Positions 5,220 to 22,437 of a stretch of 35,316 nt of DNA are shown one piece after another. The notes under the pieces are model-generated. The model worked only from the letters and a program-made list of their open reading frames with translations. It was not told where the DNA came from and searched no databases. How positions within the stretch are numbered: position 1 is the stretch's first letter; every line of letters begins with the position of its first letter. Source of the DNA: an uncultured Allomuricauda sp. (GTDB taxonomy: Bacteria; Bacteroidota; Bacteroidia; Flavobacteriales; Flavobacteriaceae); contig CALBPG010000134.1 in the NCBI GenBank assembly GCA_937899065.1, forward strand, positions 1 through 35,316, in the 5' to 3' direction. The position numbers and the translations under genes were made by a program.

Positions 5220-7619
5220 ATGAAACATGTATTTTTTGCGCTCCTTTCTTTTTTTACGCTTTGCACGAGTGCGCAAACCATCAAAGGAAAACTAACCAAT
5301 GCAACGGATGCACCGGTGCCCTATGCGGCGGTCACCTTAAGTTCTCCTTTAGATTCTAGTTTGGTAAAGGCTACTATAAGCAATGAAGAAGGAATGTATG
5401 TTTTAAAAGACCTACAGCCCAGCGAGTACTTATTTAAGGTGAATGTTCTGGGCTATGCCGATTTGGAACGCAAAATCAACTATGAAAACGGAGATTTGGA
5501 TATGGGTACCCTTGTACTGACCGAGGTAACCGAAAATCTGGCAGAGGTTACTGTGGTGGCCGAAAAACCCATGGTGCAAGTCATGGCAGATAAAACCGTA
5601 TTCAATGTTCAAAACACTATTAACGCTACGGGAACTAGTGCTTTCGAACTGTTGCGCAAAGCGCCTGGGGTGATTGTCGACAACAATGGAGGAATCATTG
5701 TGGAAGGTAAGTCCGGCGTTCAGTTTTTTATTGATGGGAAGTTGTCGGTGCTGCAAGGCGACGATTTGGTGAACTTTTTGGAAAGTCTACAAGCTACTGA
5801 TATTGAATCCGTTGAAATAATCACTCAACCTTCTTCCAAATACGATGCAGCGGGGAATGCAGGTATCATCAATATTAAGCTGAAGAAAGACAAAAGTTTG
5901 GGAACCAACGGAACTTATACTACCGGAGTAACGACTGGGGATTTTTCCCGATACAATAACAGTTTGAACTTTAACAATAGAGGTGAAAAGGGAAACTTGT
6001 ATGGAACCTACAGCAATCGCTTTGGAAAAACAACGGGATTCATCAATCTATTTCGAACGCAGTCCGAGACCCAATTTGATGCAGTGACCAATAGTGTTTA
6101 CGACCGTAACAGCAACAACTTGAAGTTAGGGTATGATTACTATGTCAACAAAAAGCATACGATAGGGGCCATCTTCAATGGGAACTTCAATAACGGATTC
6201 AGTACGGATAACAATCGCACCCCCATTCGCCCAGTTGGGAATGTTGAAAACGACAGTGTTTTGGTCGCTTTGAACCAAACGGATAACACTTCCTACAACA
6301 TCAACGCAAATATGAATTATCGGTATGCCGATACCTTGGGATACAGTGTAAACGTGGATTTGGACTATGGGCGTTACAACAGTGACAGGAATGCCTTTCT
6401 CCCCAACACCTATTTTGATGGAACCGAAAGTATTATTCTCAGTCAACGGACGACCCTACAAGAAACACCTATCAACATCGATATCGCCACTATAAAAAGT
6501 GATTACGAACAGAACTTTTTAAAGGGAAAATTAGGCCTTGGCTTCAAGTTTTCTTGGATTGAAACAGACAATACTTTCAACCAATTCAATCAGATAAATG
6601 GCGAACCCATCCTGGATACGGACCAAAGCAATATTTTCACGTATTCAGAAAACATCAATGCGGCCTATTTCAACTACAATCGAAAATGGGGTAAATGGAA
6701 TTTGCAGTTTGGTTTGCGAATGGAAAACACCATATCAGATGGCAATCTAGAAAGTGAACAGGCCAATGAAAATGAACGTGTTGAAAGAAACTATACAGAT
6801 TGGTTTCCTTCAGGTGGATAGACGTATCAATTGAATCGAAAAAACCAATTAGCGCTTACCTACAGTAGAAGGATTCAACGTCCAAACTACCAATCCTTGA
6901 ACCCTTTCAAATATCAGCTCAACGAGTTATCCTTTAGTCAGGGGAATCCCTTTCTGCAACCACAATACACCAATAATGTAAAGTTGTCCCATACTTTTAA
7001 TTACAGACTGACTACCGCCTTGAGCTATACGCGTATCACTGACTTTTTTGCTCGAGTAACCGTAGCGGAAGGAGAGACCTCCAACTTTTTGACCACTTTG
7101 AACGTGGCCAATCAAAGTGTGTACAACTTAGGGGTTTCATATCCTAAGAAAATACTCAGCTGGTGGGATGTCTACGTTAGCGTTAATGCTTACATCAGCG
7201 ATTATGAAGCCACAAGTCCAGAGTTTTTGCCCGTACGCCAAGAGACTTTGAGTTTCTACGGACAGAATACCTTTAATCTTGGAAACGAATGGCGGGCTGA
7301 AGTATCCGGTTGGTATAACTCGCCATCTGTTTGGGGTGGAACATACCAGACCCGCTCATTAGGTTCCTTGAATGCAGCCGTTCAGAAAAAATTCTTTGAC
7401 GATCGTTTTACCGCAAGACTAGCGATGAACGATATCTTGTTCACCTCACCTTGGGCAGGGGTCACACAGTTTGGAGATTTGTTCATTGATGGTAGTGGAG
7501 GGAGTGATTCTCGTAGAGTGGCATTTAGTCTGACGTATGATTTTGGTCGCAGCGAAATCAAAAAAGCGCGTAAGCGTAAAACCGGACTTCAAGATGAGTC
7601 CGACCGAATTAGCAGCTAA
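5220..7619 (+). pseudogene. TonB-dependent receptor-like outer-membrane beta-barrel protein (carboxypeptidase-regulatory-like N-terminus), interrupted by an in-frame TAG at 6819-6821
   Basis: Frame +5220 runs to WFPSGG*TYQLNRKNQLALTYSRRIQRPNYQSLNPF with no frame change. N-terminus: signal peptide plus KGKLTNATDAPVPYAAVTL; plug-like KAPGVIVDNNGGIIVEGKSGVQFFIDGK; C-terminal barrel strands to the stop at 7619. Confidence 0.88.
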
Positions 7620-7693: not shown

Positions 7694-9493
7694 ATGGCCA
7701 AAATTAAGAACATCGCAATCATCGCCCACGTCGACCACGGGAAGACCACTTTGGTTGACAAAATCATGTATCACTGTCGTTTATTTCGCGACAATGAGAA
7801 CAAAGGAGAGTTGATTCTTGACAATAATGACCTGGAACGCGAACGAGGGATTACCATTGTTTCCAAAAACGTTTCGGTAACGTATAAGGATACCAAAATC
7901 AACATTATCGATACACCCGGTCACGCCGATTTTGGAGGTGAAGTGGAACGCGTATTGAACATGGCGGATGGTGTTTTACTTTTGGTAGATGCCTTTGAAG
8001 GTCCAATGCCCCAAACGCGATTTGTGTTGCAAAAAGCGATTGACCTTGGTCTAAAGCCTTGTGTGGTCATCAATAAAGTGGACAAGGAGAACTGCACCCC
8101 TGAAGACGTTCATGAAAAAGTTTTTGATTTGATGTTTGAGTTGGGGGCCGAGGAGTGGCAATTAGACTTCCCCACGGTTTACGGCTCAGCCAAACAAGGT
8201 TGGATGAGCGAAGATTGGCAAAACCCTACTGAAGATATTTCACCTCTATTGGACATGGTTTTGGAGCATGTGCCTGAATTCAAACCGGAACAAGGCTCAA
8301 CCCAAATGTTGATTACCTCTTTAGATTTTTCAAGCTTTACAGGGCGAATCGCCATTGGTCGTTTGCAACGCGGTAACCTAAAAGAAGGTCAACAAGTAAC
8401 CTTGGTCAAAAGGGATGGGAGTCTTGTAAAATCCAAAATCAAAGAGGTATTTGTCTTTGATGGGTTGGGACGAAAGAAAGTGCAAGAAGTTCAAACTGGA
8501 GATATTTGCGCTTTGGTAGGAATGGATGGTTTTGATATTGGCGATACTGTCGCGGATTTGGAAAATCCTGAAGGGTTGAAAACCATAGCTATCGACGAGC
8601 CTACCATGAGCATGTTGTTTACCATTAACGATAGTCCATTTTTTGGGAAGGATGGTAAATACGTTACTTCTCGACACATCAAAGAACGTTTGGAGAAAGA
8701 GCTGGAAAAGAATTTGGCGCTTAGGGTAGAAGAAACCGATAGTGCTGAGAAATTCATGGTATATGGCCGCGGTGTTCTGCACCTTTCCGTATTGATTGAA
8801 ACCATGCGAAGGGAGGGCTACGAACTTCAAATTGGGCACCCTCTAGTATTCATAAAAGAAGTTGAAGGTGAAAAAAGTGAGACTATCGAGCATTTGACCA
8901 TTGATTTACCAGAAGAAGTATCCGGAAAAGCAGTTGAAATGGTCTCTATCCGAAAGGGAGAAATGACCAGTATGGAAGCCAAAGGTTCGCGCATGTTGTG
9001 CGAGTTCATGATTCCTTCTCGGGGGATTATTGGTTTGCGAAATCAATTATTGACCGCTACCGCTGGTGAAGCGATTATGGCGCATCGTTTTAAAGAGTAT
9101 CAGCCGTTGAAAGGCGATATTGCCCAACGTATCAATGGTTCCTTGGTATCCATGGAAAACGGAACAGCTATCCCTTATTCCATTGACAAACTTCAAGAAC
9201 GCGGAAAGTTCTTTATCGACCCAGGGGAGGATATCTACGAAGGTCAGGTGATTGGCGAGAATTCAAGGAATGATGATATGACCGTGAATGTGACCAAAAC
9301 CAAAAAGCTATCCAATGTTAGAGCCGCAGGTTCCGACGAAAAAGTGCGTATTGTTCCAGCCATTAAATTCTCTCTGGAAGAAGCTTTGGAATACATCCAA
9401 AAAGATGAATACGTAGAGGTTACACCGAACCACTTGCGTTTGCGGAAAATCTTCTTGAAAGAAGTAGATAGAAAACGGAATAAGATTACTTAG
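7694..9493 (+). CDS. typA: Translational GTPase TypA/BipA
   Basis: [54 protein letters not shown]; 599 aa with the TypA-specific C-terminus. Confidence 0.98.
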
Positions 9494-9513
9494 CATAGTC
9501 CAGTATTTTAGAT

Positions 9514-9732
9514 GGATTACAGCTTTCGCAGGAATGACATGCAGAGTGTTCTTTGGTCATTCCGCACTTGATGCGGAATCCACTCCGAACTTTTAAGTTG
9601 TTTTTGCTTATTCCGATAGCTGTTTTTTAAATTGGGATTCCTGCTTTGCGCCACCGTTGAAGCTAGACGACACGCGGTCTCAGGGATGAATTATTGAGGT
9701 TCTTTTGTCATTCCGCACTTGATGCGGAATCC
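9514..9732. repeat. BIME-like cluster of alternating palindromic repeats (four units)
   Basis: Units: ggattacagctttcgcaggaatgac 9514-9538; gtcattccgcacttgatgcggaatcc 9556-9581; a longer variant ggattcctg...cagggatga 9635-9689; gtcattccgcacttgatgcggaatcc 9707-9732. The 26-bp units at 9556 and 9707 are identical and self-complementary (ATTCCGCA cttga TGCGGAAT). Confidence 0.85.
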
Positions 9733-9735
9733 ATA

Positions 9736-10047
9736 TCACTCATACCAATCCTTAGCTAAGTCTATCCAGTCTGGATTTGTACTTGCAATAAGCTCTAGTT
9801 TCCACGTCCTTTTCCATTTTTTTATTCGCTTTTCGCGTAGAATAGCATCCTTTACTTGGTTATGTATCTCAAAATACACCAGCATGTCCAAACCATATTG
9901 AGCACTAAATCCTTTGTAGGTGTGATGTTTGTGCTCATGGATTCTACGTTTGAGATTATTGGTCACTCCAACATATAGAGTGCCATTCTTTTTATTGGTA
10001 AGAATATAAACAAAATAGCTTGAGAGCATAACGACAATTTCAAACAA
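9736..10047 (-). CDS. GIY-YIG nuclease family protein (UPF0213-like)
   Basis: YFVYILTNKKNGTLYVGVTNNLKRRIHEHK...GLDMLVYFEIHNQVKDAILREKRIKKWKRTWKLELI: canonical small GIY-YIG domain. Confidence 0.96.
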   Translation of the reverse strand: MFEIVVMLSSYFVYILTNKKNGTLYVGVTNNLKRRIHEHKHHTYKGFSAQYGLDMLVYFEIHNQVKDAILREKRIKKWKRTWKLELIASTNPDWIDLAKDWYE

Positions 10048-10063
10048 CGCGATTGTCGAGGTT

Positions 10064-10088
10064 GGATTCCTGCCTCCGCAGGAATGAC
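10064..10088. repeat. Palindromic repeat unit on the 5' side of the GIY-YIG gene
   Basis: ggattcctgcctccgcaggaatgac; shares GTCATTCC/GGAATCC ends with the units at 9556 and 9707 but in opposite orientation. Confidence 0.8.
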
Positions 10089-10207
10089 AAATTCTAAAAA
10101 TGTTTTGCTAGGTTATCTCAATGAATATCCAAGTCCTTTTAGGACTTTGCTAGCACATACAATGGTCGGATTTGATTAATTAGACGCGAAAAAAAGCAAA
10201 GTAAATC

Positions 10208-10966
10208 CTAAACCACATGCCCATGATGCTGCTCGCGTAAGCAGGAGACTGCAGCACCTATGATGCCGGCACTGTTCATTAGTTCAGCCTTGACCACTTT
10301 GGTGTCTACGTCAATGTATTCATGGAATTCATGCCATTTTTTGCTGGTACCACCTCCCACAATAATCAAATCGGGAGCAGTAATGACTTCTACCAACTTT
10401 AGGAATTTATTGAAACGCTTGCCCCATTTTTCAAAAGAAAGCTTCTCGCGCTCTTTGGCCGAGGCAGCAGCCCACTCTTCTATCTTTCTGTATTTTTTGT
10501 AGGGAATTTGGCCTAACTCAAAATTGGGGAGCAATACCCCATTGTGAAAGACACCACTTCCAAGACCGGTGCCAATAGTAATCATAATGACCAATCCTTG
10601 TTGACCTTTGCCCACGCCATAGTTCATACTGGCATACCCGGCTGCATCGGCATCATTGACTACAGTAAAGGGCTGACCTACCACTTTGGTGAACAATTCA
10701 TCAATATTTACGCCAACCCAGCTTTTATGAAGATTACCGGAAGACTTGCATACGCCGTCCTTAACGATACTCGGAAAACCGCAACCTACGGGGCCTTTAT
10801 AATTGAAGTGTTCTACGATTTGTCCGACCACTTCGGCCATTTCATCTGGTTTTCGAGAAGGTGGGGTGGGAATTCGATGGCGCTCACTTACCATTTCACC
10901 CGTTTCCACATTTACCAAAGCTCCTTTAATACCGGTTCCGCCGATATCAATGCCCAATATTTCCAT
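10208..10966 (-). CDS. ppgK: Polyphosphate glucokinase (ROK family)
   Basis: LGIDIGGTGIKGALVNVETGEM, VNDADAAGYASMNYG, TIGTGLGSGVFHNGVLLPNFELGQI; 252 aa, PPGK-like. Confidence 0.9.
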   Translation of the reverse strand: MEILGIDIGGTGIKGALVNVETGEMVSERHRIPTPPSRKPDEMAEVVGQIVEHFNYKGPVGCGFPSIVKDGVCKSSGNLHKSWVGVNIDELFTKVVGQPFTVVNDADAAGYASMNYGVGKGQQGLVIMITIGTGLGSGVFHNGVLLPNFELGQIPYKKYRKIEEWAAASAKEREKLSFEKWGKRFNKFLKLVEVITAPDLIIVGGGTSKKWHEFHEYIDVDTKVVKAELMNSAGIIGAAVSCLREQHHGHVV

Positions 10967-20766: not shown

Positions 20767-22437
20767 ATGTGCGGAATTGTGTGCGCTTTTGACGTGAAGC
20801 AAGATACAGAAGAGTTGAGACCCCAACTATTGGAGATGTCAAAAAAAATACGGCATCGTGGTCCAGATTGGAGCGGAATTTTTTCGAATGATAAAGCCGT
20901 ATTGGCCCATGAGCGTTTGGCTATTGTTGACCCCACTTCAGGGAAGCAACCCTTATACAGTGATGATGGCCAGCTAGTTTTGGCAGCCAATGGCGAAATT
21001 TATAACCATCAGGAATTGCGGAAGCGATTCGAAGGAAAATATGAATTCAAAACCCAATCGGATTGTGAGGTCATTTTGGCCCTCTATAAAGAGATGTGAC
21101 CTGATTTTGTGGATGAAATGAACGGAATCTTTGGTTTTGCGATTTACGATGCGGCCAAAGACGAATATTTTATTGCCCGAGACCATATGGTGTTTATTCC
21201 CCTATACATTGGCTGGGATCGCAACGGAACTTTTTATGTTGCTTCCGAATTGAAAGCCTTGGAAGGTGTTTGCAGTAAAATTGAATTGTTTCCTCCTGGA
21301 CATTATTTACACAGTTCTGATGGAGAATTCAAAAGATGGTACCAACGGGATTGGATGGAGTATGAAGCGGTCAAGGAAAACGAAACGAGTATTCAAGAAA
21401 TTAAGGATGCTTTGGAAGCTGCGGTTCACCGTCAATTGATGTCGGATGTTCCTTATGGTGTATTGCTTTCTGGCGGATTGGATTCTTCCGTAACGTCGGC
21501 AGTAGCCAAGAAGTTTTCACAAATGCGAATCGAATCCGGAGATACCAAAGAAGCTTGGTGGCCGCAATTGCACTCGTTCTCTGTTGGTTTGGAGGGTTCT
21601 CCTGATTTGGCAGCGGCGCGAAAAGTAGCGGACCATATAGGAACCATCCACCACGAAATAAAGTTTACCATCCAAGAAGGTCTGGATGCCATCAAAGATG
21701 TGATTTATAACCTGGAAACCTATGATATCACCACGGTACGTGCGTCAACACCCATGTACCTCATGGCCCGTGTCATCAAATCCATGGGTATTAAAATGGT
21801 ATTGTCCGGTGAAGGCGCGGATGAGCTTTTTGGAGGCTATCTGTACTTCCACAAAGCACCAAGTCCAAAAGATTTCCACGAAGAGACCGTACGCAAATTG
21901 GATAAGCTCCATATGTACGATTGCTTGCGAGCCAATAATTCTTTGGCAGCATGGGGTATTGAAGGGCGTGTACCTTTCTTAGATAAAGAATTTATGGATG
22001 TCGCCATGCGCATCAATCCCAAAGACAAGATGATTAATGGCGAACGTATGGAGAAATGGGTCGTTCGCAAGGCTTTTGAGTCCTACTTGCCCGAAAGTGT
22101 GGCTTGGCGCCAAAAAGAACAATTTTCAGATGGGGTCGGCTACAGTTGGATTGACACCTTGAAAGCTTTGGTCGAAAAAGAAGTATCGGATGAGCAACTT
22201 GAAAACGCTCGCTTTAAATTCCCGATTCAAACCCCGACCTCAAAAGAAGAATATTACTATCGTTCCATTTTTGAAGGACATTTCCCTTCTGATGCGGCTG
22301 CGTTGAGCGTGCCACAAGAGCCTTCAGTGGCCTGTAGCACCAAAATTGCCTTGGAGTGGGACGAAGCCTTTAAAAATATGAATGACCCTTCAGGAAGGGC
22401 CGTGGCGCACGTGCACGAGGATGCTTATGTGAAATAG
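20767..22437 (+). pseudogene. asnB: Asparagine synthase B (glutamine-hydrolysing), interrupted by an in-frame TGA at 21097-21099
   Basis: MCGIVCAF with catalytic Cys2, IRHRGPDWSG, then LYKEM*PDFVDEMNGIFGFAIYDAAKDEYF in the same frame, then GVLLSGGLDSSVTSAVAKK and GEGADELFGGYLYFHKAPS. Only one stop breaks a full-length AsnB. Confidence 0.92.

Follow-up and report, generated by a model that had tools for sequence, protein, structure and literature searches.

CGTC-tagged REPs are known from at least five phyla, and the well-studied repeats of Neisseria and Rickettsia are among them. They are defined by a C/TGTC tag, a stem of 8-9 bp from AT, a loop of 4-5 nt, and a CCA tail (Di Nocera, De Gregorio and Rocco 2013, PMC3733652), and the super-family takes in the Neisseria dRS3 and the Rickettsia RPE-4 and RPE-6 repeats (PMC3733652). 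The only systematic study that we found reported no dedicated enzyme. According to this study the CGTC REPs "lack a dedicated transposase", and no associated transposase gene was found, transposase genes being what was searched for (PMC3733652). The intragenic set of that study excluded REPs inside hypothetical proteins of less than 120 aa, and the GIY-YIG nucleases described here, with about 95-105 aa, are below this limit. Several of the taxa listed there, namely Azospirillum lipoferum, Novosphingobium aromaticivorans, Sinorhizobium meliloti, and Neisseria, carry the GIY-YIG gene. This nuclease is most likely the best candidate for the missing enzyme of the CGTC-tagged REPs including Neisseria dRS3, although its cleavage of the repeats is inferred.

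The REP array between typA and ROK

The window, which is the whole stretch of 35,316 nucleotides that was analysed, is contig 134 of an assembly of 4.05 Mb in 269 contigs that is 92% complete. From its gene content and its relatives a placement in the Flavobacteriaceae is inferred. In this window, typA (7694-9493) and a ROK-kinase gene (10208-10966, minus strand) enclose five palindromes and a GIY-YIG nuclease gene, which together make up an insert (9494-10207, without strand); in the sisters G277, G253, and G273 typA and the ROK-kinase gene adjoin each other with an empty gap of only a few bp. The nuclease gene is encoded on the minus strand (9736-10047; PF01541, E 5.8e-17). Its longest reading frame starts from TTG at 10047 and comprises 103 aa, and the ATG at 10029 would give 97 aa. 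A CGTC-2 REP with the stem ATTCCGCA, the 5-nt loop CTTGA, and the tail CCAT (9707-9732, plus strand) is found 3 bp past the stop codon, and a CGTC-1 REP, GGATTCCTGCCTCCGCAGGAATGAC, with the stem ATTCCTGC, a 4-nt loop, and the tail CCAA (10064-10088, minus strand) is located 34 bp upstream of the ATG. Both carry a GTC tag that points outward. The type of the 3' REP recurs in congeners, and the 5' REP is also present in the congeners G270, G267, G272, G255, G257, and G309. These two REPs flanking the gene most likely represent the functional pair, and the units further to the left an adjoining REP cluster. This cluster contains a degenerate CGTC-1 REP, GGATTACAGCTTTCGCAGGAATGAC, with GGATTaC as one arm (9514-9538, minus strand, read directly), which is oriented tail-to-tail with a CGTC-2 REP, GTCATTCCGCACTTGATGCGGAATCC (9556-9581, plus strand), that is identical in all of its 26 nucleotides to the REP at 9707-9732. 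Between the latter two a long-armed, degenerate REP-like palindrome is found (9635-9689, minus strand), whose relatives are at G000:C147:28550-28609 and at the typA/ROK junction of G282.

The window units, read directly, have the unpaired C/TGTC tag, meet the stem and loop criterion with ATTCCTGC/4 and ATTCCGCA/5 (other lineages have other stems), and meet the tail criterion, so that both forms, CGTC-1 and CGTC-2, are present side by side. An earlier note, made from the sequence alone, had claimed five strictly alternating units, two of them identical 26-mers, with similar linkers (gttcttt) and a GIY-YIG nuclease gene in the array, and all of this held, except that F and R were assigned the other way round than here, where F is 5'-GTC-hairpin-CCA-3'. 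Its comparison to the architecture of enterobacterial REP/BIME clusters had to be corrected, as the repeats belong to the CGTC-tagged REPs and not to the enterobacterial (GTAG) ones.

All genome-wide REP counts are based on pattern searches. The pattern GTCATTCCN{4,22}GGAATCC matched eight times in the 4.05 Mb genome of the window, and TCATTCCN{4,20}GGAATC 26 times, about 18 of these looking like true hairpins, while the reversed controls of both gave no match. CGTC REP copies numbered 18, again against none for the reversed control. A chance origin of the palindromes was rejected on the basis of these empty controls. The palindromes of the window are real CGTC-tagged REPs, far above chance expectation. 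They are repeated in the genome and intergenic at the loci examined, but only one of their clusters has the GIY-YIG gene and most copies are far from any such gene. This would be expected if the remote REPs were non-autonomous copies, which is possible. Two other GIY-YIG genes in this genome, which are of another type, have no tagged REPs within 1.5 kb.

Apart from the array, a TonB-receptor-like outer membrane protein gene (5220-7619) is apparently divided into two reading frames (5220-6821 and 6831-7619) by a frameshift, a stop, or an assembly error. An asnB-like asparagine synthetase gene (20767-22437) is interrupted by an in-frame stop near 21100, leaving same-frame reading frames at 20767-21099 and 21109-22437, and a PLP-dependent decarboxylase-like gene (33750-35299) is apparently broken into the overlapping reading frames 34073-35299 and 33750-34076.

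REP load and GIY-YIG copy number in Flavobacteriaceae

In 251 Flavobacteriaceae genomes from 237 genera the number of REPs correlates with the number of GIY-YIG copies (rho 0.57, p 8e-23). After correction for genome size and RAYT a partial correlation of 0.52 remains, whereas that of REPs with RAYT, given GIY-YIG, is 0.006. The gene is present in 43 of the 46 genomes that have at least ten REPs, and the mean REP number increases from 1.6 in genomes without a copy to 16 with three and 38 with eight copies, a rise per copy that exceeds the two flanking REPs. The distribution of the gene is patchy, with one to nine copies in 145 of the 251 genomes, some of them broken by internal stops. The exceptions G095 and G097 have 48 and 30 REPs, respectively, and no close GIY-YIG match but only weak ones; the homologue in G091 is weak and split into two parts. 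It could be possible that in such cases the REPs outlast their enzyme.

No match to RAYT (PF01797) was found in the window genome at its 92% completeness, and RAYT was rejected as the driver because of this and because of the absent partial correlation.

REPs around GIY-YIG homologues in other lineages

Homologues were fetched by protein only, and REP content played no part in their choice. The best Flavobacteriaceae loci have the order GTCATTCC-hairpin-CCAT, gene, ATGG-hairpin-GAC. Homologues from the plasmid collection belong, among others, to Azospirillum, Sinorhizobium, Rhizobium, Shinella, Novosphingobium, Sphingobium, Neisseria, Aeromonas, and Photobacterium, and most of them have inverted CGTC REPs at both ends with differing stems (ATCCTCGGG, ATCCCAGGG, GCCCCGTG, ACCCCGGG, ATTCCCGC); the stem type of the Rhizobiaceae, for example, is ATCCTCGG, and that of the Flavobacteriaceae ATTCCTGC/ATTCCGCA. 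A scan of GTDB gave at least 80 loci in Pseudomonadota, Bacteroidota, Omnitrophota, Nitrospirota, Chloroflexota, Armatimonadota, Bipolaricaulota, Patescibacteria, and others. About ten or more phyla have homologues located between outward-facing CGTC REPs.

Of the tags on hairpins close to homologues GTC dominates, with 128 of 384 hairpin ends. At the GTDB loci GTC-tagged hairpins number 8.9/kb up to 50 bp from the gene, 2.7/kb between 50 and 200 bp, and 0.8/kb between 200 and 400 bp; beyond 400 bp there are 0.16-0.24/kb and beyond 800 bp 0.16-0.19/kb, compared to 0-0.4/kb for eight other trinucleotide tags. Within 50 bp, 63 of 71 tags point outward (63:8, p 1e-11). A REP is found within 100 bp of 25 of the 30 Flavobacteriaceae, 54 of the 80 GTDB, and 10 of the 15 plasmid-collection homologues, but of only one in 21 UPF0213-type GIY-YIG control genes of the Flavobacteriaceae (Fisher tests, 1.3e-8 and 1.2e-7). 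The association is also seen without regard to the tag: at 49 of 79 loci the two 150-bp flanks share an inverted repeat no shorter than 12 bp, compared to none of 70 at a distance of 1 kb and one of 26 controls. From locus to locus the stems on the left and on the right change in concert, with identical arms in 38 of 61 cases compared to 6.4 by permutation (maximum 16 in 10,000). A proximity of all GIY-YIG genes to REPs was rejected given the UPF0213-type control, and a generally high REP density of these loci given the roughly 50-fold fall by 800 bp. The GIY-YIG gene next to REPs is no coincidence, and the enrichment beside such genes, which the earlier note had suggested to look for, held across phyla, with the REP load following GIY-YIG and not RAYT.

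About 26 of the 80 GTDB homologues are without a canonical tagged REP within 100 bp, many of them having imperfect, shifted, or long-armed palindromes. In the whole set the loop class of the REPs tracks the protein tree (none of 500 shuffles was as good) but this is confounded with host taxonomy, and within the Alphaproteobacteria alone it does so no better than shuffled labels (95 of 500 were as good).

It might be argued that the REPs are spread by RAYT or another transposase and that the GIY-YIG gene is just a frequent passenger or an insertion in REP-rich spacers. IS elements are known to target REPs (PMC1525189), and many REPs are remote from GIY-YIG genes. However, the partial correlation with RAYT is nil, RAYT was not found in the window genome, and no transposase gene was found in association with CGTC REPs (PMC3733652). 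In addition, for a passenger one would not expect REPs on either side at a distance of 10-50 bp, with their tags pointing outward, in many phyla, and the other GIY-YIG family would have no reason to avoid REPs (1/21). We therefore regard this explanation as very unlikely.

Some further loci are of interest in their own right. At a Bradyrhizobium locus (L132, 3319-3346), which is one of the apparent negatives for a canonical tagged REP, the Br-REP1 core CCGGAATCTCGAGATTCCGG (Hahn et al., PMC5082802) directly adjoins a GIY-YIG gene of this family, and from this adjacency it is conceivable that the Br-REPs share the GIY-YIG system. GIY-YIG copies in Sinorhizobium and Rhizobium (L081, L076) are located inside mosaic clusters of palindromes whose tag is CCTC and not GTC, the remaining design being kept. 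In Neisseria gonorrhoeae (L144, L075) the homologue is found inside a dRS3 cluster, which makes it a candidate partner enzyme of dRS3. GIY-YIG homologues are also encoded in 40 IMG/VR viral contigs (L162-L201), and a horizontal spread via viruses is possible.

The nuclease

In 117 homologues Y8, Y19, G21, R29, E66, and N85 are conserved in 100% and H33 in 99% of the sequences (numbering of the 97-aa protein). With the Pfam domain and the catalytic Y, Y, R, E, and N the criteria for the GIY-YIG superfamily are met, and the invariant catalytic residues together with the domain suggest a catalytically competent nuclease under strong constraint. The closest solved structures by sequence profile are the UPF0213 proteins 1zg2 (E 1e-8) and 1ywl (E 3e-6), followed by UvrC at greater distance, and the matches to I-TevI and SLX1 are faint. 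Members of the GIY-YIG fold cut nicked, branched, or specific DNA. That the nuclease cuts REP hairpins is inferred, as there are no activity data and the cleavage itself has not been observed.

Loci, empty sites, and gene-less alleles

The adjacency of typA and ROK is shared by dozens of species of the window's genus. The window's sister species have empty typA/ROK sites without palindrome, and in other congeners the junction contains different palindromes. G281 has a GIY-YIG gene at this junction, in opposite orientation relative to typA and with only degenerate repeats. Another family of GTCAT-tagged palindromes (type GTCATTTCGAACGAACGTGAGAAATC) was observed at typA/ROK in congeners (L266, L268). 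In other species of the genus the gene is found between trpB and trpA (G270, G267, G272, G260), between trpD and trpC (G255, G257), or elsewhere (G279), trp gene names being our reading of the translated flanks. Most copies in the genus have a type 1 REP (ATTCCTGC, 4-nt loop, tail usually CCAA) in the 5' part of the unit and a type 2 REP (ATTCCGCA or ATCCCGCA, 5-nt loop, tail usually CCAT) in the 3' part, with outward tags and an interval between both, including the gene, of about 265-335 bp. G279 has a type 1 REP on both sides. The location thus differs within the genus while the association with the gene remains. The earlier note had considered its proposal refuted if genome-wide copies showed no association with GIY-YIG genes or if the orthologues occurred at conserved loci without repeats. 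Neither is the case, since the copies within one genus are at several loci, nearly always with repeats, the exceptions being a copy without any (L283) and that of G281. The empty sites in sisters that it had suggested to look for were found, and gene-less pairs in addition.

At trpB/trpA all steps of a series are present, from 54-84 bp spacers without REP, via gene-less pairs of the same type 1 and type 2 REPs (G332, G257, G309), to pairs with the gene (G319, G330, G260, G267). This location is common to several species, and might reflect inheritance rather than repeated insertion. The trp operon (trpB/trpA, trpD/trpC) is a recurrent site of the REP-GIY-YIG unit in the genus, sometimes with two copies (G319); its units are at the loci L276, L277, L278, L282, L279, L280, L289, L308, L311, and L313. 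Gene-less type 1/type 2 pairs, about 50 bp from start to start, are also found elsewhere (G044, G073, G131, G177, and C65 of the window genome). In Azospirillum the unit is located between sufB and sufC. Insertion may often happen between the genes of operons (trp; sufB/sufC), where it could be harmless and the unit perhaps transcribed by read-through, but this is inferred. The sequences of the empty sites have diverged too far for the insertion boundary to be placed to the base, and no target-site duplication was resolved.

Presence/absence polymorphisms are found between Sphingobium megaplasmids (fnrL/response regulator) and in Sinorhizobium (near purQ). In both, a gene-less allele has a single double-tagged palindrome that combines the outer half of one flanking REP with that of the other, which is CGTC-ACCCCGGG-TCAAG-CCCGGGGT-GACG in Sphingobium TomTYG64/74 and CCCTC...GAGGG in S. 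meliloti. Such palindromes (GTC-hairpin-GAC or CCTC-hairpin-GAGG) were identified at L243 (1516-1557), L241, L245 (about 1366-1401), L118 (2864-2887), and L198 (1571-1591). They could be excision scars, deletion products, or homing targets. The double-tagged alleles are compatible both with a deletion between the palindrome arms and with an insertion as in homing, and the data favour neither.

According to the homing explanation the GIY-YIG gene is a free-standing selfish gene with REPs as its target, which cuts existing palindromes and enters them through the repair of the break but does not itself spread REPs. The double-tagged, gene-less palindromes of two lineages indeed resemble the intact target of such a gene, and the nearest resemblance in NCBIfam, although below the cut-off, is to a group I intron endonuclease. 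However, the insertion into a single palindrome would give the two halves of one, whereas the two REPs differ in type and tail at nearly every locus of the genus. The gene-less pairs bear the same two ends as the unit, the double-tagged alleles are equally explicable as losses by deletion between 8-bp arms, and the REP load per GIY-YIG copy is higher than the two flanking REPs. Homing alone is therefore unlikely. The nuclease could also have a host function, e.g. clearing hairpins that stall replication, and be kept beside its substrates. The strict conservation of the catalytic residues would agree with this, as would the repair nucleases UvrC and SLX1, which have the same fold and act on structured DNA but are only distant matches. 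Against it stand the patchy presence (145/251) in one to nine copies, the broken copies with internal stops, the different loci within the genus, and the presence/absence between close plasmids, and a host function seems very unlikely to us.

A proposed REPtron-like unit

The reading that we prefer is that the outward CGTC REP pair and the GIY-YIG gene most likely form one mobile unit of about 0.4 kb, which is REPtron-like and whose nuclease is cognate to the CGTC REPs. The family of the repeats, the architecture, the association, the copy-number correlation, the different loci within the genus, the empty and gene-less sites, and the invariant catalytic residues have been shown; the cleavage of the REPs, the phosphodiester that is cut, and the route of insertion are inferred. 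The earlier proposal of a REP-like family that is mobilised or maintained by a small GIY-YIG endonuclease is supported to this extent, the catalytic act on the hairpin remaining an inference.

In the proposed mechanism the REP pair would represent the ends of the element. The nuclease would recognise the folded palindrome with its GTC tag and CCA tail, either on single-stranded DNA during replication or on a cruciform, and would cut at or beside the hairpin. The released or nicked unit may then be inserted or copied into a new site via a cut in the target and host repair or replication. Loss of the gene would leave head-to-head REP pairs with the same ends, which might be served in trans as REPIN-like, non-autonomous elements. 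Isolated REPs, and clusters like the array to the left of 9707, would be products of decay and amplification.

A bolder reading, towards which we lean only slightly, is that this is an undescribed class of prokaryotic mobile elements in about ten or more phyla that rely on a GIY-YIG nuclease as their sole enzyme, with tagged DNA hairpins as its substrate. This class would be the origin of the CGTC-REP super-family and, unlike the HUH REPtrons, would use a hydrolytic cut at the hairpin end without a covalent protein-DNA intermediate.

Comparison with known systems

Searches of the open-access literature, which did not include subscription journals or preprints, gave no report linking GIY-YIG to CGTC REPs. 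RepRanger (2025) does not mention GIY-YIG, and CGTC appears only in one reference title. CGTC REPs and GIY-YIG proteins are both known but, as far as the open-access literature tells, their link is likely new. The repeats of the window and the CGTC-tagged REPs of PMC3733652 agree in tag, stem, loop, CCA tail, head-to-head dimers, intergenic location, and many copies; for the latter no dedicated enzyme was reported, and the GIY-YIG partner is the addition made here. A candidate enzyme can thus be named together with its putative substrate (hairpin, GTC tag, CCA tail), and with natural presence/absence and gene-less alleles.

The UPF0213 GIY-YIG proteins are the closest in structure by profile. 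However, UPF0213-type paralogues in the same genome and family are, unlike the gene of the window and with one exception among 21, not flanked by REPs. With the GIY-YIG homing endonucleases (I-TevI, group I introns) the nuclease shares the catalytic domain and residues as well as the selfish spread. The catalytic residues of I-TevI are the same as here. In contrast to these, the unit of the window has no intron, does not interrupt a coding sequence, and has hairpin repeats as ends. If our reading is true, many small genes annotated as "GIY-YIG nuclease family protein" with unknown function would gain a role.

The REPtrons (RAYT/TnpA-REP with GTAG REPs) and REPINs are alike in that a nuclease gene is located between inverted REPs, gene-less dimers are dispersed, and the REP type depends on the lineage. 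REPtrons have an HUH/Y1 tyrosine transposase and GTAG-tagged REPs, whereas the unit of the window has a GIY-YIG nuclease and GTC tags, and at the GTDB loci GTA-tagged hairpins are not enriched near homologues. Because the HUH transposase and the GTAG tag, which are both defining, are absent, the unit would work like a REPtron but is not one. If true, a second, unrelated nuclease superfamily would have independently evolved the lifestyle of REPtrons and REPINs.
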